This document shows, one piece after another, positions 8,566 to 30,097 of a DNA stretch of 32,499 bases. Source of the DNA: Candidatus Altimarinota bacterium (GTDB taxonomy: Bacteria > Patescibacteriota > Gracilibacteria > BD1-5 > UBA6164); contig JAHDCR010000009.1 of NCBI GenBank assembly GCA_020629795.1, positions 1 through 32,499 on the forward strand. Reading direction: 5' to 3'. Made by a program: the position numbers and the translations under genes. Positions within the stretch are counted from its first letter, which is position 1. Each line of letters begins with the position of its first letter. The notes below the pieces were generated by a model that saw only the letters and a program-made list of their open reading frames with translations, was not told the origin of the DNA and did not search any database.

Positions 8566-9777
8566 ATGAACATGAGAGACGATAAACTAAAAAGCCTCCT
8601 TTCAAGCAAAGGACCAAAATCAACATCTAGAGGACCAGAAGAAGTAAAACTTTCAGGGTCAATATCACCAGTTGCAAATATAAAAGTTGTAGGGGTAGGA
8701 TGAGGATGACAAAATGCAGTAAATAGAATGATTGAAGCATGACTTGAATGAGTTGACTTTATAGTGATGAACACTGATGTTCAAGCTCTTTATGGTTCAC
8801 TTGCAGAAAATAAAATCAATCTTGGTAAAATGATTACTGGAGGTCTATGAGCTTGATCAAGTCCAGAAGTGGGAAAAAAAGCTGCAGAAGAATCAAGAGA
8901 AGAAATTAAAGGATTCCTTGAAGGAGCTGATATGGTATTTATTACTTGTGGTCTAGGTGGAGGTACTGGTACTGGTGCTGCTCCTGTGGTTGCAGAAGTT
9001 GCAAAAGAAATAGGTGCTCTCACAGTATGAGTTGTAACACGACCATTTAGTTTTGAAGGTCAAAATAGAACTTCAAAAGCTATGGACGGTTTTGATGAAC
9101 TCAAAGAAAAAGTAGATACACTCATCACGATTCCTAATGATAGAATTTTATCTATAATTGATAAAAAAACTCCTCTGCTCGACGCGTTTGGTATTGTAGA
9201 TGAAGTCCTCAATCAAGGGGTACAAGGTATTTCAGATCTTATTACTCAACCAGGTCTTATCAACGTGGATTTCGCGGATGTACGATCAGTTATGAACTCA
9301 GCAGGTAGTGCGCTTATGGGTATTGGGTATGGTTCAGGTGAAAACAGAGCTATTGAAGCTGCTAGATCAGCTATTGATTCTCCACTCCTAGATTTATCAA
9401 TTGCAGGAGCAAAAGGACTCCTCTTTAATATTACAGGTGGAACTGATCTCTCTATGTTTGAAGTAGATGAAGCTGCAAAAGTTATTACTGACTCAGTAGA
9501 TGGAGATGCAAATATTATATTTGGTGCTACTATCAGAGAGGATTACGAAGGTGAAATAAAAATTACAGTAGTTGCAACTGGTTTTGATGAGAATACAAAC
9601 AAAAGATTTGAAGAAAAAAAATCTCAAGGTCAATCTTCTAATGGAGCATCAATTTTTGGAAAAAGATCAGTTTCTGACTCTAGAGTTATGCCAGCTGCAC
9701 AACCACAACAAGAGCAAGGAAATATGCACAATGGTGAAGACTTAGACATTCCAACATTTCTTAGAAAGAAAAAATAA
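8566..9777 (+). CDS. ftsZ: Cell division GTPase FtsZ
   Basis: 403 aa with TGA as glycine. After about 40 variable residues the GTPase core begins with IKVVGVGGGGQNAVNRM; the tubulin signature GGGTGTG is at residues 131-137, and [10 protein letters not shown] and the T7-loop region follow. The C-terminus [13 protein letters not shown] is the conserved tail that binds FtsA. Seven TGA codons all lie in the first 155 codons, including two in the G-rich loop; the remaining 248 codons use only GGN for glycine. FtsZ polymerises into the division ring. A second in-frame ATG at 8572 is possible. A long terminator follows after 43 bases. Confidence 0.97.
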
Positions 9778-9820
9778 AATTCGTCTATAAAAAATAGTGA
9801 GTCCGTTAGCTAAAAGAATA

Positions 9821-9863
9821 AAAATACTTAAGATATATACGGTATATATCTTAAGTATTTTTT
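9821..9863 (+). terminator. Terminator after ftsZ, abutting the next ATG
   Basis: A 19-bp AT-rich perfect stem (AATACTTAAGATATA and its complement) closes on a 3-base loop and ends in TTTTTT. The T run runs straight into the ATG of the following prepilin gene, so the hairpin can also form the 5' end of that message. It is symmetric and may work in both directions. Confidence 0.85.
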
Positions 9864-11855
9864 ATGCGATCCAATAAGAGCCTCGGTTTTACTTTAGTTG
9901 AACTAATAGTGGTTATTACAATACTGGCTATTTTAGGTACGATATGATTTATATCACTTCAGTGATACGCTACTTCTGCTCGAGATTCAGCAAGAATTAG
10001 TGACTTATGAATCATAGCAAAATGATTAGATTTATTTAAGATCCAGGAGTGATATTTTCCAGCCCCTACAGACTCATATAATGTAACGTTTTCATGAACA
10101 TTAGCGTGGAAGCAATGAGTTTTTTGAGATGCTACGAGACAATTGACTCAGAGGATTTCCAGTACTCCAGTAGATCCCCTCACGTGAAGTCGTTATGCCT
10201 ACTCGGTAACGAATACAGGCCAAGAATATGAGTTATGAGCTATTACAGAAGGACTTATATCATGAAATACTGGTATAAAAAATTGATTAGTTCCTACGAA
10301 TACTGCCAATGCAGATAATTCATTTTTTACCTATATAAGGTGAAACTATAATAAACAAATAGTTACAGTTAAAGAACCGACTAAATTGTATGTACTGTGA
10401 GTTCCAACGATAATTACTACAGAAATAGAAAGCGTAGATGTGAGAGATATATTCACTCGTCAGAGTTTTGCAATTTCATGAAGTAAGAATTTACCATGAA
10501 GTTATGCAAATAATCTTCCAGAGTGACAAACAAGTACGGGGAGTGTGAGCTTTACAGCTTGAACGGTAGCAACTGCTCCAGTGTTGTTTGAAGGAACAAC
10601 ACAAGAGCTTTCATGATCAAACAGCAAGCAGATACTTGGAGAAAACCTTGTGTCGTACTATGCGAATTCTAATCTTTCAACAAAGAGCTCATACTCTAAT
10701 CTGTGATCCATAGGTACGTGACAAGAATATGAGTATATTAATACACTCATCAAAGCTGATACATCATGACTTTGAAGTAGTAATGTTGTAGTGAGTACAC
10801 AAGTTCCGACTAATGTAGGTTCTACCTTAGGTGGTGAATGAGAATGAGGAGAATGAGGGGATTCGTACCCGGGTTCATGTTTAGCTATGACTCCAACAAA
10901 TTTATCTAATCTCAATAACTGGATGGAAGTTGAAGTTGAAACTGATAGGGCAGGAAATGTGATTGCAACATGAAACCCAAATGGTAACGCAGATCCTTGA
11001 GTTTCATCTTTAACTATTAGTGAATGGTGTAGCATAAATTGATTTTACTACTTAGGGTCAGATGCAGGTGGTGATATAACATATATCCCAGAAGAATTTT
11101 GATTTTTAGGCGAGTTAACAGAGTTTGATTTTCCTTTCCAGAGTATTAATCAAATACCGGAATCATTTACTTTATTAGAAAATATCACAAGTTTTAATCT
11201 AAGTGGTAATACAGCTCTATGAGATCTAAATGGACCTTCTTTTTCAGTATTACCAAATTCATGAGATATAAATTGTGAACTATGAATTTCAGATACTTGA
11301 AGAGGTATTTGTGTTGAACTTCAGCCTGATCAAGGATCATGAGAAAAGATTGCATTTTATGTGAGTGATACAGATGTAACATCAATATGATCTAGTCTTT
11401 CATCTTGTAGCGAAAATATTTCTTCAACTCAACTAGGAAACCTTAATTCGTGGGGCGATACGTTTTTGGCAGTAGAGCCAGAAGATGTAACTGCTTATAT
11501 TAGTGCTTTCCCACCAAGCACAACTTATACTACAGATCAGTGGTGCAGTGTAACAGTTATTGATTCTTTTTGAGTGGATGGTAGCTGAATAGGTATAATC
11601 GATGAAATATCACTTCTCTTAAATTTAAACTGGTTGAGTATACAAGATAGTGACCTTACTGTTATTCCTCAAAGTTTTGCTGAAATAACTACACTTAAAA
11701 ATATAAATTTTTCTTGAAACCCATCTTTATGAAGTCTTAACAATCTATTTGACGTTAATTCTCCAAACACGTGCGCATCTGTAGGTGAAAGTTGAGGTGT
11801 AATCTGTGTTGAATGAAATGGTACAACTATAGATATTACTTTTTCTGTAAGTTAG
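9864..11855 (+). CDS. Prepilin-like protein with C-terminal leucine-rich repeats
   Basis: 663 aa with TGA as glycine; about 42 TGA codons, so the gene is invisible under the standard code. The N-terminus MRSNKSLGFTLVELIVV is a class III (type IV pilin) signal: cleavage after Gly8, Phe +1, Glu +5, then one hydrophobic helix (VVITILAILGTIGFI). A pilin-like region follows. Near residues 310-330 is a Gly/Glu-rich linker (GEGEGEGGD). The last third carries repeats such as ITSFNLSGNTALGDL and LKNINFSGNPSLGSLNNLF, in the form of leucine-rich repeats, with Cys-containing segments (EWCSING, DQWCSV). It is far longer than a normal pilin (about 150 aa), so it looks like a tip or adhesin-type minor pilin that displays a binding domain. 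It ends in TAG. Confidence 0.82.
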
Positions 11856-11865
11856 AAACTTTAAA

Positions 11866-11898
11866 AAAACTCTCAGAATCATATCTGAGAGTTTTTTG
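11866..11898 (+). terminator. Terminator after the LRR prepilin gene
   Basis: ACTCTCAGA and TCTGAGAGT form a perfect 9-bp stem around ATCATA, followed by six T, 13 bases after the TAG stop. Confidence 0.9.
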
Positions 11899-12036: not shown

Positions 12037-14193
12037 ATGCAAGGACTATCAGATAGCAATGTAGTGGATTTACTACCACTTAAAAAGACATATGAAATTT
12101 CAGGAAAAAAACTCAGTTTTGAAACAGGAAAAATAGGGCTTTTTGCAAATGGAGCTGTGACTATGAGTGATGAACTTGGAAACGTTTTATTTACTACAGT
12201 TGGAATCAAAGAAACTGGACTCAACGAGCAAGCGAGTTTTTTCCCACTTGTTGTAGATTATGTAGAAAAATACTACGCAACAGGGAAAATAGGGGGAAAT
12301 AGATTTATGAAGCGAGAAGCCCGTCCAAGCGACGCTGCAACACTTACCTCACGTATGATAGATAGGCCAATCAGACCAATGTTTCCTAAAGGAATAGTGA
12401 ATGATACTCAAATTATATGTAGCGTGTTTTCTAATGACAATAATTCTGAGCAGGGATCTTGGGGGATAACATCAGCATCTCTCGGTTTACTCATGGCTGG
12501 AGCTCCGTTTGAGGGGCCAGTAGCTGGAGTGAAAATAGTTTTAAATGAGGATGATTCTTATACGTTTGATCCAAGTTTTGAGCAGGAAGTTAATGCTAAA
12601 CTTCATCTTGTAGTAGCTGGGACACTTGATGCAATTACTATGGTAGAGGCTGGAGCAAATGAAGTAACCAATAAAGAAATGCTTGCAGCACTTTCTCATG
12701 CTCACTCACTTATACAGGACTTATGTAACGCGCAGCTTGATTTTATTGCTGCTTATGAATCACAATTTGGTAAAATCAAAAAAATAGAACCAACTCTCAA
12801 TAATCCTGATGTAAGTTTGTATGAAAAAGTGCAGGAATTTTTGACTGAGAAAAAGCTTGAAGTGCTTTATAATAAAGGAAAAAAAGACTTTCAAAAAGAG
12901 CTGGACGCTTTAGATGAAGAGACAAAAAACTATTTATTAGAAACTGGTGATTACACGCAGGATGATGATACATCAGGTGTTGGTGCTATGGTGTATAAGA
13001 GAGTGAAGGAAATTATGAGAAAAAATATTCTTGAAAATGAGAGAAGACTTGATGGTCGAGCTCCAAATGCAGTAAGAACTATTGTAGGAGAGGTAGGATT
13101 ACTTCCAAGAACTCACGGATCAGCTCTGTTCCAAAGAGGTATGACGCAAGTACTCAATGTTTGTACTCTTGGATGACCAGAGGATAACATGCTCGTTGAC
13201 GGAATGTATAATGAAACAACAAAAAGATATATTCACCACTATAACTTTCCACCATATTCAGTTGGTGAAGTACGTATGATGCGAGGAGTAGGTCGAAGAG
13301 AGGTTGGTCATGGTCGTCTAGCAGAGAGAGCTTTAGAGCCAGTAATGCCGAGTGAAGCTGAGTTTCCATATATGATACGTACTGTGAGTGAAGTAACAAC
13401 TTGTAATGGGTCAAGCTCTATGGCATCTGTATGTGGTTCTACTATGAGTCTGATGAATGCTGGTGTTCCAATAAAAAGACCAGTTTCTGCAGTTGCAATG
13501 GGGATGATATACGACGAAGATTCTGGGAATTATACTATTTTGTCAGATATACAGGCTCAAGAGGATTTCCTCTGAGACATGGATTTCAAGGTCGCGAGAA
13601 CAGCAAAAGGAATTACTGCTATGCAAATGGATGTGAAAATCAAAGGACTGAAAATGGAAGTGTTTGAAAAGGCTTTTACTCAAGGTGAGCAGGCAAGTAT
13701 GCATATACTCTGAGAAATGCTCAAAGTACAGGCAGAGGTAGCTCCAGAGCTCTCTCCATATGCTCCACTTATCATGAGTATGCAAGTTGCTGAAGACCAA
13801 ATTAGAACGGTAATTGGAAAAGGAGGGGAAACAATTCAAAAAATACAAGCTGACCACGATGTAGTTATCTCTATTGCGGAGGATGGACTTACTACCATAA
13901 CTGCTAAAACGCAAGAATCAGGAAAAGCCGCAATTGCTATTATTAACGAGCTCCTTTGGGTTCCAGAGGTATGATTTACAGGTTCTGGAAAAGTAGTAAA
14001 GATTATTGAATGAGTCGGTGCTATAGTTGAGTTTAGAGGAAAACAATCAGGAATGATTCATATTTCTAAACTCTCAAAAGAGCGAGTAACAAATGTTGAA
14101 GACATCGTAAAAGCTGATGATATGGTTGATTTCGAAATTATACAAGTTGATTTAGCAAAAGGAAGAATTGGACTAAAAAGAATTGAAAAATAG
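12037..14193 (+). CDS. pnp: Polyribonucleotide nucleotidyltransferase (PNPase)
   Basis: 718 aa, the usual PNPase length. Order: first RNase PH domain ([14 protein letters not shown]…, then [19 protein letters not shown]), an alpha-helical linker, second RNase PH domain ([56 protein letters not shown]), KH domain with [12 protein letters not shown], and S1 domain starting [11 protein letters not shown] and ending MIHISKL. It degrades RNA 3' to 5' by phosphorolysis. Five TGA-glycines occur, all after residue 379 (first at 13174); one is in the S1 start and one in the segment LGGPEDNML of the second catalytic domain. It ends in TAG with a terminator after 25 bases. The start at 12037 is the first ATG after the leader. 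Confidence 0.97.
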
Positions 14194-16173: not shown

Positions 16174-17118
16174 ATGAAAAAATTAAATAACTTATTAGGT
16201 TTTACTCTCGTAGAACTTATAGTAGTAATTACTATAGTATGAATACTCTCAACAGTTGGTTTTGTGAGTTATTCAGGGTATCTTACGTGAGCAAGAGATT
16301 CCAATAGAATATCGCAGCTTACGAAGTTATCTGATTCTCTTCAGGTGTATGCTGCAAATAAAACTCTTCCATTACCAGATAATTATGTAGAGATTACAGA
16401 ATCTTGATCAATATTAGCCTATCAGTGAGAAGTGTGAGTAGACGTATTAGAAACTATAGACTATACAAATTGAGGTAAAGATCCAAGAGATGATAGTTAT
16501 TATACGTACTATCTTACAAAGGATAGAAATAATCTTCAACTTATGGCTTTTATGGAAGAACAGCAAAGTGTTTTATCATTTATATGAAATCAAGCTTTAG
16601 CTATTGATTACACTGATAGTTTTCCAAGAACTTATGGAAAAGATTTGTGAATTTTAATAGAGCCAATTACGAATACACCTATACAAGATTCTTCCTCTGT
16701 AGTTAATGCTTTAGATATAAAAAATACTTTTGAAGAATATGTAATGCATGTAAATAGTAGCTCATATACATGAACAGGATCAAGACTCATTAACTTACAT
16801 TATTATTATAATTTAGATAGAAATGATTTTATCGCTGAGGATGAAGTCCCTGGTTGGTTTGTATGAGGTGTCACATGAATAGAATTTTTAATTGCAGCTT
16901 GTAACGATAATAGATGAAAATATATTGTAGTTGATGCAAAAGATGTTATAGAAAATTCAGGTAGCAATTTATATTTTCAAGAATCCTGACTTCCACTTAC
17001 TACAATGTTGTATAACTGAGAGTATTCATGAAGATTAGTTTTAAACTGCAATTGAACTACAAGCTTCGGATTAGTCTTAGAGGATTGAGAGGAACCCCAG
17101 GTATCCGGGGCGAGCTAG
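16174..17118 (+). CDS. Prepilin-like minor pilin / pseudopilin
   Basis: 314 aa with TGA as glycine (about 20 TGA codons). The N-terminus MKKLNNLLGFTLVELIVV is a type IV prepilin leader: cleavage after Gly9, Phe +1 and Glu +5, then the hydrophobic helix VVITIVGILSTVGFVSY. The remaining 270 residues are a soluble domain with acidic/aromatic composition and three Cys near the end, without recognised repeats. It resembles the LRR prepilin in its first 60 residues (…GYLTGARDSNRISQL versus …GYATSARDSARISDL), so the two share an ancestor. It would be processed by a PilD peptidase, not found in the window. It ends in TAG. Confidence 0.82.
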
Positions 17119-21417: not shown

Positions 21418-22497
21418 ATGGATAAGGTTATTAAGTCGGATCATACAATGAGAGATCAATTATTACAGGTAATGATTGATAATAAATGAAGTGATATGTA
21501 TATCACAGTTGGTACGCACCCAGCAATAAAAATATCTGGTGAAATTGCGAGTATAGATGATGGTATAGACGAGTTTACATGGAAAGATACCTTTGAATTT
21601 GCTCAATCTATTATAGACGAAAAACAGCATGAGAGACTCGTGAAAGACAAAAATTTAGACTTTTCTTTTTCGTATGCGGGAGCAAGATTTCGTTGAAATG
21701 TATCTTTTCAAATGGGGAATTATATGGTGGTTGTCAGACTACTCAATGCTGAAATTCCAGACATAGATACACTCTGACTGACTGATATTTACAAAGATGT
21801 AACAAAGCTAGGACAGTGACTAATACTTATTACTGGACCAACATGATCTTGAAAGACTACAACTCTTGCAGCGATGATTAATTTTATAAATGAAAATTAT
21901 AAAAAGCATATTATTACAATAGAAGATCCGATTGAATACATACATAAACACAAAAAATCTATCATAGAACAAAAAGAAGTATGAAGAGATGTACCTGACT
22001 ATGAAACTGCGCTTATATGAGCTATGAGACAAGCTCCTCAGGTAATATTATTTTGAGAAATGAGAAATAGAAGAGAGGTAGAAATGGCACTCACATTAGC
22101 AGAAACGGGACATTTAGTATTTTCAACGCTCCACACTCGTAGTGCGAGTCAAACAATATCAAGAATTATAGATATATTTTCAGAAGGAGAAAAGGAACAA
22201 GTGAGAATGCAATTATCTGATGCTCTTGTAGCTGTATTCTCACAAAGACTCCTTAAAAAAGTTGATGGAACGTGAGTCCACATGGTAAAAGAAATACTCA
22301 GAAACAATAGTGCGGTAGCAAATCTCATCAGAGAAAACGATACTCATCAGATTCCGACAACAATACAAATGTGAAAACGTGAATGAATGCAACTACTGGA
22401 AGATGATATCATCAGCCTGATTCAAATGTGAGAAATTACAGTTGAAGAAGGAATGAAATATGCAAATAATCCGAGACTTATCAAAGAATCAGCTTAA
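21418..22497 (+). CDS. pilT: Type IV pilus retraction ATPase PilT
   Basis: 359 aa with TGA as glycine (13 TGA). The N-terminal PAS-like domain has [19 protein letters not shown]. The P-loop is ITGPTGSGKTTT (138-149), in which two of the glycines are [13 protein letters not shown] is the Asp box, ILFGEMRNR (210-218) the Walker B, and [10 protein letters not shown] (231-240) the His box. These are the PilT/GspE-family elements, and the '[15 protein letters not shown]' form with a length near 350 aa favours PilT over PilB. PilT retracts pili. It is transcribed toward the pilin/pilC/pilB cluster but separately from it, with a shared terminator between. Confidence 0.95.
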
Positions 22498-22558: not shown

Positions 22559-23179
22559 CTAGAAAGTAAGACCACCAGCAATAGCTTGGTTGTTAGTCAT
22601 ACCTGTACCTGCATTAGGTGCAGCTATTAGACCACCAATAGCAGAACCTTCTGCTTGATAGAAGTTACCAGTTACAGCAGCGTTGTAGTTAGTACCATCA
22701 GCTTGAGGGATTTGCCCAGCAATTTGATATACAGCATAACTATCTTTAGATGATGTATCATCGTCTGAATCGTTTTCAATTAAAACAGAAACTACGTAAT
22801 CCTGAGTTGTTTGACCAACTTGGTATTTGAAGTTATCACCGTTTTGTTTTAGACCAGCAAAGTTGATATCACCAACATCGTAAGTATCAGCATCAGCCAA
22901 AGTTTTTTGTACAGTCGAACCGCTGTAGAATACATTAGTATCAGCTACCTTATTAGTTGTACCTGAGTTAGTTACAAGTGAACCTAGAGAGATAGACCCA
23001 TCACTAATACCAGTTTCAACTGCTGTTGCTAAAGTTCTAAGGTCAGAAGTAACCTTTGAGTTTTTAGCGTCTTGTGAATATCCTTGTAGAGATATAAACG
23101 CGATTGTACCAAGTATAGCAAGAATCGTAATAACTACGATGAGCTCTACTAGAGTAAACCCTTTTTGTACTTTTTTCAT
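22559..23179 (-). CDS. Probable major type IV pilin
   Basis: 206 aa. The leader MKKVQKGFTLVELIVVITI is a canonical short prepilin signal: cleavage after Gly7, N-methylated Phe +1 and Glu +5. The helix VVITILAILGTIAFISLQGY continues to a conserved Tyr. The globular part is rich in Gly, Thr, Asn and Asp and has no Cys. More than twenty glycines are all GGN, with none TGA, unlike the three larger prepilin genes; that codon purity, the small size and its place next to pilC suggest the abundant structural subunit. It has its own upstream region of 170 bases and a terminator after the TAG. Confidence 0.88.
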   Translation of the reverse strand: MKKVQKGFTLVELIVVITILAILGTIAFISLQGYSQDAKNSKVTSDLRTLATAVETGISDGSISLGSLVTNSGTTNKVADTNVFYSGSTVQKTLADADTYDVGDINFAGLKQNGDNFKYQVGQTTQDYVVSVLIENDSDDDTSSKDSYAVYQIAGQIPQADGTNYNAAVTGNFYQAEGSAIGGLIAAPNAGTGMTNNQAIAGGLTF

Positions 23180-23409: not shown

Positions 23410-24630
23410 TTATAAGTTTTTTGCAACTTCACCCATACCAAAAAACGGCATCATGATACCAATAATAATTGTACCTACGAGAGCACCGACTATAACGATT
23501 ACAATAGGTTCCATCATAGATGACATATTTCAGATATACCTTTTAAGCTCTCAGTTATAGTTGTTTCAAATCTTCTTTAGAGAGTCTGATAGAGTCCCTG
23601 TTTCTTCACCTGTACTCACAACATAGGCAAATTCTTCTGAAAAGAGTTTATTGAGATATACATTGGTATCATAATCGAGATTGAGCCCCAGAGATTTTGA
23701 TATAGTAAGTCATACTTCAACTTCATTTTTAATTCTGATAATTTCTTTTTTATATAATAGGTTTGGAACTACCTTACTAGATGTTTGTATTGCCTCGAGT
23801 AAGAGTACCCCAGCATCAAGGAGTATCGTAAATGATTTAATAAAATATATAATATTGGATTGCCTTACTACCAGTCAGAATACAGGAGCATGAAAGGCTA
23901 ATTTTGCAAAAAATATCTTCCCAGTATATGTTTTTTTGAATAATTTTATAAATACTATAAATATAACAAATCATATGATGATATCCAGCCAACTATAAAT
24001 AAAGAAATCTGATACGTTTACAATAAATTGCGTAAGTCATGGAAGATTTGCACCAGCTTTATCAAAGGCTTCTGTAATTCTAGGTACAATAAATACCATC
24101 ATAAATACTACCATACAAAGAGTAAGAACCATCAGTACAGCTGGATATACCATTGCTCATTTTACCTTTCATTTTAATTCTATATTTTCAAGGAGATTTC
24201 TATCTAGTTCTTGAAGAATTTTTCCGAGTTGACCAGTTTTTTCACCTACTTCAATCAGTGCTGTTGTCAGTGAATCAAACACTTTTGGATACTGAAGCAT
24301 AGTTTCATGAATTGATACCCCATGGTCAATATTTCGACGCATTTCTATAACGATTTTTTTAATTAGAGGATTTTTACTTTGTTTGATAAGGATTCAGAGT
24401 GCTCATTTAATATCAATCCCAGAATTAACGAAGATTGAGAATTTATTAATAAATTGCCAAACATCCTTTTGTCACGCTTTAGCAAACAGTATAATTTCTT
24501 TTGCTCATCATGTCTTTTTTCAGAATTCTGATTTTAGTTGAGCTTTTTGTGCCTGCTTTAAAAGAGAGATAACTTTTGCATTATCAAAATTTCAACTTGA
24601 GTCGTAAAATTTCTTTTTTAGTAGGGACAT
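23410..24630 (-). CDS. pilC: Type IV pilus inner-membrane platform protein PilC (GspF family)
   Basis: 406 aa with TGA as glycine. It has two GspF domains: the first from WQFINKFSIFVNSGIDIKGA to GEKTGQLGKIL; the second from IKSFTILLDAGVLLLEAI to STGEETGTLSDSL. Membrane segments are AMVYPAVLMVLTLCMVVFMM, the paired helix before KLFKKTYTG, and the C-terminal VIVGALVGTIIIGIMMPFF. The N-terminal 50 residues differ from the common PilC start. PilC organises pilin insertion with PilB. The ATG (24630) is 9 bases after the stop of the PP2C gene, so pilB, PP2C and pilC are one operon. Confidence 0.94.
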
Positions 24631-26546: not shown

Positions 26547-27779
26547 TTATATCAATTTAAATGCTTCTTCTAGTGTTGTGTCTCAAAGGGCAGCTTTGAG
26601 TATACCATCTTGTACTATGGTAATCATTCCATGTTTTATAGCTTCTTTTGCCATGTTATTTGCTGAGTCTTCTGCAAGTATCATAGGCTCTAAAAAATCT
26701 TCTACTATAAGAACTTCATGTATACCAAGTCTTCATTTATATCCAGTCCCATGACATCTATCACAACCTGTACCATGATAGAATACGATTTTATCAATCT
26801 CATCTTTATCCATAATATTTTCCAGATATTTTACTACTTTGGCTTTTTTTAAATCTGACATATTTTCTGGTTGTTTACACTCGTGGCAAAGACGTTTTCA
26901 AAGACGCTGAGATATAACCATCTTCATAGCTGATGCTAACAGAAATGGCTCAACCCCCATGTTTATCATACGTTGAATAGTACCGGTTGCTGAGTTCGTA
27001 TGTATCGTAGACAACACCAAGTGACCTGTAAGTGCGGCTTCTACTGCAAGAGTTGCGGTCTCCTTATCACGTATTTCCCCGACCATTATGATATCAGGAT
27101 CCTGACGCACAAGACTACGTAGACCAGATGCAAATGTATATCAGATTCCAGGGTGAACTTGAGATTGATTTACGTATTCAATATCATACTCTATCGGATC
27201 TTCCAGAGTAGAAATATTGTATTCAAGAGGATTAAAGTTTTTTAGTATCCCAAATAGGGTAGTAGATTTACCAGAACCGGTAGGACCAGCAACCAGCATA
27301 ATACCATACTTACTTGTGAGAGCCTCTCGAACCTTTTCTAAATTTATATCAATGAGTCAGAGCGCTTCAATATTTGTTAGATTATCGTCCTGTTTCAGGA
27401 TACGCATAACAACTTTTTCTCAGTAATTTGTTGGCAGTGTCGAGAGACGAATATCAATATTTTTATCAGTGATATCATCATGAAATACTACCTTACCATC
27501 TTGAGGTTTTTTATTTTCATCGATTTTTATTTTTGAAAGTACTTTGAGTCTTGTTACTATTGCTGAAATATTTTCTCTTCAGATTTTATCTATCAGATGA
27601 AAATCACCATCCTGTCTAAAACGTATGAGTAGGAAATGTTCCATTGGCTCAATATGTATATCCGAAGCATCAAATTCAATTGCTTGCTTAAAAATATTAC
27701 TTACATATGAAACAACGTCCCCTACATTTTTCTTTAGGGGCATGTCATGTATTGCATCTCTTTTATCTATATCTGGCAT
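26547..27779 (-). CDS. pilB: Type IV pilus assembly/extension ATPase PilB (GspE family)
   Basis: 410 aa with TGA as glycine. [20 protein letters not shown] starts the N2 domain; Walker A is [13 protein letters not shown]; the Asp box is TLEDPIEYD; Walker B is [13 protein letters not shown] (about 230-242); the His box is [12 protein letters not shown] tetracysteine zinc motif, CHEC…CDRCHGTG (about 298-340), marks the PilB/GspE group and is absent in PilT. The usual N-terminal MshEN domain (about 150 residues) is missing: the protein starts with [20 protein letters not shown]. PilB drives pilus extension together with PilC. It heads a three-gene operon and uses mostly GGN in its motifs. Confidence 0.94.
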
Positions 27780-29320: not shown

Positions 29321-30097
29321 CTATAAAATTCAGTCACAAATCGTATCTTGTAAAACTCAGTTAGAGTCAAGAGTTTGATATTCATCAGTACTTCAAGTTG
29401 CGCTTATATTTTTTCAAGCAAGGTTAATTTCACTACAAGATCTCAGATCAGTGTTTTGCCAATAGTCATCTCACGCAGCACTTAACATTTGGTCGAGACT
29501 ACTTCCATCACTATAAGGAGTACCTGTATTAAAATCATAGGGAAGAGTGTTAAATCCTTTATCAAATAAAAATAAAGATTTACTGCTGGGTAAAGATATA
29601 TCAGTATCACTGATTGTGTCTAGAGCTAAAGCAATGTTTGGAAGTACGTTTTTAGAGACGCTTCTATAATCTCATTGTAGTATTGTGTATGGACTATCAC
29701 TATTCTCAGCACTTGCAGCAATTTGGTATTCTTGACGATTTCTAGTTGTGGAATAAATATAGGGAATTTTAAGTTCAGGATCCAATGGAAGGTTTGTTGA
29801 CGAGGTAGTAAGTGATACTTTTGTGTTCATTTTTCATTGGTATCCAATAATTACACTTCAATTTACAAGATTGAATCTATCTCATGGAAATGGATAAGCT
29901 CATCTCTCTCTTTTATAAAGACTTAGTTGAGATCAAAGAGCAGATACATCCGTGATTCGTGCTGTGTCTCTCGCGTCAGAGATACTTTTTGTGTAGCTGT
30001 AAAATCAAATGGAAGTTAGAATTACGAGGATAGTTGCTGTAACTACGATTTCTACAAGAGTAAAAGCTGAACTTATAGATTTAGTACTTATTTTCAT
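29321..30097 (-). CDS. Prepilin-like minor pilin with Ala at the cleavage site
   Basis: 258 aa with TGA as glycine (about 14 TGA). The leader MKISTKSISSAFTLVEIVV has the pilin pattern (Phe-Thr-Leu-Val-Glu, then a hydrophobic helix VVTATILVILTSIGFYSY), but the residue before Phe +1 is Ala rather than Gly; PilD accepts Ala at low rate, so processing may be slow or the protein is a GspH-type minor pilin. The SISDARDTARITDVSALGSQL section matches the other prepilins of the window (helical linker). The C-terminal domain has two Cys 30 residues apart and no known fold. It is divergent from the 30225 exported protein gene, with 127 bases between them. It ends in TAG. Confidence 0.8.

Follow-up and report, generated by a model that had tools for sequence, protein, structure and literature searches.

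In this study we have identified a modular type IV pilin in a tiny, host-dependent Gracilibacterium that uses genetic code 25 (gene at 9864..11855, forward strand, 663 aa, stop TAG, in a window that is the whole analysed stretch of 32,499 nucleotides). According to its sequence, the protein is built of a prepilin leader, a helix, a pilin chassis and a hinge, followed by two cysteine-capped leucine-rich repeat (LRR) modules. By analogy, it is fairly probable that it is inserted into retractable pili and that it would display a swappable recognition module there. The original prediction that a type IV pilin carries an LRR domain was corroborated, as the leader, the LRR matrix, phmmer, Foldseek and the module alignment agree.

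Reading frame and genetic code

Read in code 25, the frame 9864-11855 starts with the ATG at 9864, extends over 663 codons and is closed by the terminal TAG ending at 11855; it contains 42 TGA codons, translated as Gly, no TAA and no internal TAG. The remaining two forward frames of the same interval carry 48 and 35 TAA and TAG codons, therefore a chance open frame could be ruled out. The coordinates proposed earlier for a 663-aa protein with about 42 TGA codons proved to be exact, and 42 were counted. The claim that the gene is hidden from standard annotation holds under table 11, but table 25 reveals the pilin gene immediately, and the protein can be called giant only in a relative sense (112 of 186 pilin frames reach at least 400 aa, in a sample biased to long frames). 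It was also observed that 24 of the 25 window genes checked have no Shine-Dalgarno-like sequence within 20 bases 5' of their start codon; the sequence suggests mostly SD-independent initiation in the genes of the window.

Neighbouring genes and pilus machinery

The gene order in this part of the window is ftsZ, LRR pilin, pnp. The upstream neighbour ftsZ (8566..9777, +; an ORF whose family was assigned by sequence recognition) was found in seven of the eight genomes of the genus, and the downstream pnp, encoding polynucleotide phosphorylase (12037..14193, +; sequence recognition), served as the locus marker. A terminator-like hairpin with a T run lies 3' of the pilin gene (11866..11897, +).

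The machinery of pilus assembly and retraction is encoded in the same window, 10-18 kb from the LRR-pilin gene: the retraction ATPase gene pilT (21418..22497, +) scored above the cut-off (TIGR01420, 404 bits, cut-off 319), and homologues of PilC/GspF, the inner-membrane platform (23410..24630, -), and of PilB/GspE, the extension ATPase (26547..27779, -), were recognized by profile search. Additional pilin genes are a probable major pilin of 206 aa (22559..23179, -; PF07963 36.3 bits, TIGR02532 above cut-off), another prepilin of 314 aa without any extra Pfam domain (16174..17118, +; ORF and profile search) and a prepilin-like protein of 258 aa (29321..30097, -), which matches TIGR01710 with E 4e-7 and stays below the cut-off of PF07963 (16.4 bits).

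Prepilin leader and pilin chassis

The N-terminus of the LRR pilin reads MRSNKSLG^FTLVELIVVITILAILG. The leader MRSNKSLG (9864..9887, +) is cleaved, by prediction, before F9 (MRSNKSLG^FTLVE), and has the features of a class III leader: it is short and basic, with Gly at position -1, Glu at position 5 of the mature protein and a hydrophobic stretch. The leader noticed originally was confirmed by PF07963 (27.1 bits against a cut-off of 21.2), and TIGR02532 also scored above its cut-off.

The leader is followed by the pilin chassis (residues 9-304; 9888..10775, +), which comprises the helix (residues 11-62), the head and a second conserved domain, and in which cysteine is absent. In the full-length AlphaFold2 model, calculated without LRR rows in the alignment, residues 11-300 mostly have pLDDT values of 70-95; the 52-residue N-terminal helix (11-62) and the strands between residues 69 and 128 are mostly at 73-95, hence the predicted model has the long N-terminal alpha helix and the beta head of a type IV pilin. 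The top four Foldseek matches of the pilin part are type IV pilins, with probabilities from 0.99 to 0.25 and E values of at least 0.07. From residue 305 the modelled chain is disordered, and a flexible linker (residues 305-337; 10776..10874, +; pLDDT about 30-50) includes the predicted Gly/Glu hinge, which was indeed found as GGEGEGGEGGD at residues 323-333 (10830..10862, +).

Two LRR modules in the C-terminal half

The rest of the protein is occupied by two tandem modules of about 150 residues each, which are homologous (28% identity, E 8e-9) and contain all eight cysteines of the LRR pilin, four per module. Module A (residues 338-497; 10875..11354, +) has cysteines 339/389/471/483 and, by sequence, an LRR block at residues 403-455 (11070..11228, +); module B (residues 513-663; 11400..11852, +) has cysteines 515/561/637/648, an LRR block at residues 577-625 (11592..11738, +) and the closing motif CVEGNGTTIDITF. 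Between its caps each module contains one or two degenerate LRRs. The LRR-like repeats of the original prediction are present, but instead of extending across the last third of the protein they form the two short blocks, and the modules in which these sit take up the last half.

Pfam LRR_8 reached only 15 bits (E 0.021, cut-off 27), so an LRR assignment from Pfam alone was dropped. A 21-position LRR matrix was trained on LRR units of other genomes, with the LRR pilin and its orthologue left out; its score amounted to 21.4 bits for residue 585, with a further 7.7 bits for residue 415. None of 2000 shuffles of the LRR pilin came up to this, and residues 1-313 gave nothing above zero. By the matrix and the shuffles, repeats of 20-30 residues of the LxxLxLxxN type occur in this protein beyond chance. 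The best phmmer match among PDB sequences was the Leptospira LRR protein LIC11098 (E 7e-10). From the Cys/WC cap via the LRR block to the closing G-x-G-T-x-I-x-I-like motif, the module could be aligned over its full length with textbook LRR pilins, and the pilins aligned to it through caps and tail score far above the Pfam LRR cut-offs. A match to LRR_5 (PF13306/IPR026906, BspA-type) was not listed for the LRR pilin at E<=1, and was weak in some of the pilins of relatives. Since just one or two repeats in each module score as LRR, fewer than in relatives, the LRR binding face may be small or partly decayed.

Structures were predicted from two separate alignments, one for the full length without LRR rows and one for residues 335-663 with LRR rows; a mixed alignment was not used, because it misplaced LRR fragments onto the pilin part. 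In the 335-663 model short strands stand exactly 23 residues apart (86/109, 256/279), with short helices between them, and the LRR strands of module B have pLDDT values of 71-94, confidence being limited to the last ~80 residues. Of the top 50 Foldseek matches of this model, almost all were LRR proteins (best E 0.02), and VIA-align gave a best Z of 15.5 (rmsd 2.8 over 120 residues). It should be emphasized that the LRR answer was favoured here because LRR rows were part of the alignment, and in the full-length model without such rows the modules were not folded and there was no confident C-terminus. The proposed structure prediction of the C-terminal part thus did not contradict an LRR solenoid, with good confidence in the module B strands and a mean pLDDT of only 48.6.

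Recurrence of pilin-LRR fusions

The pilin part was matched in all 48 genomes of the family, at about 20 loci in the own genome, and the named matches belong mostly to 'Candidatus Gracilibacteria'; the LRR part alone was matched in 14 of the 48. When the frames were read, the pilin-LRR fusions numbered at least 16, from 10 of the 48 genomes and 6 of 20 genera. Complete fusions range from 544 to 1317 aa and frequently contain textbook LPxxIGNLTNL repeats, of which up to 17 stand in relatives' pilins between caps like those of the LRR pilin; relatives P0003-P0005 and P0007-P0012 pass the curated Pfam LRR cut-off. LRR matches outside long code-25 frames (G023:C20, G035:C1) were not counted as fusions, nor was a long LRR protein lacking a prepilin leader (G030:C90).

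Some of the fusions also bear a PPC or a Fib_succ_major-type domain. In the pilins at L082 4451-7207, L089 2871-6824 and L084 5370-7706 (778-1317 aa) LRR modules are combined with a C-terminal Fib_succ_major-like domain, which from its sequence appearance we take to be C-type-lectin-like, and one of them has a PPC domain in addition.

When 380 genomes of the phylum were searched with an LRR pilin as query, no single match covered both parts, the matches being LRR-only or pilin-only; one long frame among the LRR matches (G352) was a different protein which starts like a subtilase. A true fusion of pilin, LRR and ConA-like lectin was found elsewhere in the phylum, in G416 (914 aa, L254 136-2880), in the standard code; consequently the pilin-LRR fusion also exists outside code-25 lineages. 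The search for such fusions in other Patescibacteria, which the original prediction had suggested, was therefore successful in nine family genomes besides the own one and in one genome elsewhere in the phylum, and since at least 16 fusions in 10 family genomes and a further one outside the family are at hand, the pilin-LRR fusion is real and recurrent.

Probable module exchange at the pnp locus

The gene directly upstream of pnp differs among the species of the genus. In G013 it is a pilin with one LRR module, its 5' end cut by the contig; in G012 and G016 it is a pilin with DUF285 repeats; in G018 it is a plain pilin, and before it stands a DUF285 frame truncated by the contig end; and in G015 no pilin occupies this slot. 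In the G015 slot (L228 1-708) a frame resembling a phage-tail-like surface protein was observed. Two species thus have the LRR module at this locus, and another two have unrelated DUF285 repeats. The chassis of the window protein is 57% identical to that of G012 over 306 residues, 47% to that of G016 and 57% to that of G013 over the 134 residues available. The LRR module had no detectable match in the pnp-locus proteins of G012, G016 and G018.

Module B is 48% identical to the single module of G013, and the cysteines, caps and closing motif are kept among module A, module B and the G013 module. The window protein probably carries a module duplication, because the G013 linker is followed directly by the counterpart of module B. 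For FtsZ and PNPase the identity between the window and G013 is 91%, so compared with the values for the chassis (57%) and the module (48%) the pilin diverges much more rapidly than the genes beside it. On the ftsZ side, G012 and G018 have a fibrinogen-like-tailed pilin directly downstream of ftsZ (L232 717-2108, L233 944-2026), which makes this side a modular-pilin site as well.

Judged from these sequences, the pilin module at the pnp locus would be exchangeable while the chassis is kept, in keeping with selection for a fit to partners or hosts that change. As a tentative extension, the pilin gene upstream of pnp might be considered a docking slot where the chassis is kept and the C-terminal module is swapped wholesale from species to species (LRR, DUF285 repeats or none), forming together with the ten fibrinogen-like-tailed pilins of the genome an exchangeable receptor set that chooses which cells are gripped; this could be likened to the exchange of the receptor-binding tip of a phage tail.

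Pilin repertoire and dyads before pilin genes

Besides the LRR pilin, the own genome encodes ten pilins whose tail is fibrinogen-like; nine of these match PF00147, and one was recognized by motif only. Six of these tailed pilins stand in tandem (YCDM..GGGW; C13:62049-69782, L101 3050-10783), and two more long ones, of 513 and 921 aa, lie near this array (C13:33828-38139, L100). A second copy of the LRR module was not found in this genome. The pilins of relatives carry other modules, such as DUF285 repeats, ConA-like lectin, Fib_succ_major and Listeria-Bacteroides repeats among others, and the LRR pilin is probably one among a number of interchangeable "hands" with which the bacterium grips other cells.

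A 20-bp AT-rich inverted repeat (9820..9862, +; z -3.84) ends one base before the ATG of the LRR pilin and may function as an ftsZ terminator and/or a regulatory dyad. It differs from another palindrome, CTTATAAATA-N-TTTATAAG, which occurs at exactly three sites of the own genome (C9:24869-24894, C10:30299-30325, C10:49071-49097; reversed control 0), each just 5' of a pilin gene, and which in a genus relative precedes pilin ATGs by 4 bases, with compensatory changes (L132, L139). This second palindrome is possibly the operator of a pilin regulon. Hairpins before pilin genes were in general only modestly enriched (31 of 150 against 15 of 144 shuffled), and this was not taken as evidence.

Possible function of the LRR pilin

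In the proposed mechanism the prepilin peptidase would cut and methylate the leader, and the helix would insert the LRR pilin into pili made by the PilB/PilC/PilT machinery. The module part makes up about half of the 663 residues and exceeds the pilin head, so the protein might be placed at or near the pilus tip or decorate its side as a rare subunit; its size likewise suggests the role of a minor pilin. The LRR faces would attach to a protein or a glycan of another cell, and PilT retraction would then draw the bound cell in. Tip display and host-cell binding are suggested by analogy with S. sanguinis PilB, TM7x PilX2 and shufflon PilV. Type IV pili are expressed in groundwater Gracilibacteria, according to metaproteomics (PMC11452946).

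The leader might instead provide a membrane anchor or belong to a part of a T2SS-like pseudopilus, with modules that act near the cell surface and never on a long pilus, e.g. in holding neighbour cells or a secretion substrate. The best NCBIfam match of the LRR pilin is TIGR01710, the GspG major pseudopilin (E 2e-7, 31 bits), and the machinery of the genome is equally GspE/GspF-like; nevertheless the match is far under the cut-off of 88.85, and the same window encodes a PilT retraction ATPase above cut-off, which makes this explanation unlikely. It is even less probable that the modules are the decaying, non-binding remnant of a longer LRR pilin. Such a decay could account for the one or two scoring repeats per module, against up to 17 in relatives, and for the Pfam scores below cut-off, but the frame is fully open across 663 codons, the cysteines, caps and closing motif are conserved in modules A, B and that of G013, and the module has probably been duplicated and not eroded.

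A pilus-borne module could also serve a purpose other than host attachment, such as kin recognition, cell-cell aggregation, uptake of DNA or peptides, or surface sensing via pilus retraction. LRR domains have ligands of many kinds, and the diverse pilin modules of these genomes fit more than one task; such a role has to be taken seriously, although it is not the one we would expect: the host dependence of Gracilibacteria and the involvement of pili in the host contact of other Patescibacteria favour attachment (PMC11452946, PMC12206443).

Partner recognition by host-dependent Patescibacteria is largely an open question, and few pilin adhesins have been tested so far. A kept pilin body with swapped modules at one locus yields a defined list of candidate host-recognition domains which can be produced individually, and the module swap predicts that the type of the module tracks the partner organism.

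Comparison with known modular pilins

Modular pilins have been catalogued in 264 architectures (Raynaud et al. 2021, PMC8179133); as its text describes, the combination of a pilin with IPR026906, the BspA-type LRR (PMC7140858), is among the 15 commonest, and one of 15 representative modular pilins is from Gracilibacteria. The LRR pilin adds one member to this known class: as in the modular pilins presented in that text, an N-terminal pilin is fused to a C-terminal domain that is not specific to pili. Its LRRs resemble the LPxxIGNLxNL type of LRR_8/LRR_14 more than the BspA type described there, and they are arranged in two capped tandem modules, a comparison made with the article text. Modular pilins, LRR ones included, are thus already known from that text, and the module swap is the fresher part; a locus-level exchange of modules on one chassis was not found described in the open-access literature, including the text of PMC8179133.

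The nearest solved LRR sequences and folds are those of Leptospira LIC11098, LIC12759 and LIC12234 (PDB 4u08, 4u09, 4tzh), free LRR proteins without a pilin fusion. Adhesion has been demonstrated for S. sanguinis PilB, where a vWA module binds host proteins (PMC8179133). The LRR pilin resembles PilB and PilC in the bulky module added to a pilin, ligand binding being a feature of PilB/PilC; in these a vWA or ConA-like module is attached to a small pilin module, whereas here LRR modules are attached to a chassis of ~300 residues.

The only functional precedent within the phylum that our literature search found is TM7x PilX2 of Saccharibacteria, a minor pilin with a C-terminal beta-propeller which is required for full host binding, and whose loss reduced the bound hosts from 10.6% to 4.6% (PMC12206443). 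Both PilX2 and the LRR pilin are patescibacterial pilins with a large C-terminal domain, a beta-propeller in the former and LRR in the latter. In the shufflon PilV of IncI plasmids (e.g. TP114), C-terminal variants alter recipient specificity (PMC9045228). In both PilV and the LRR pilin the pilin part stays constant and the C-terminal part can be exchanged; the switch in PilV is made by DNA inversion inside one genome, while at the LRR-pilin locus the exchange is seen between species.
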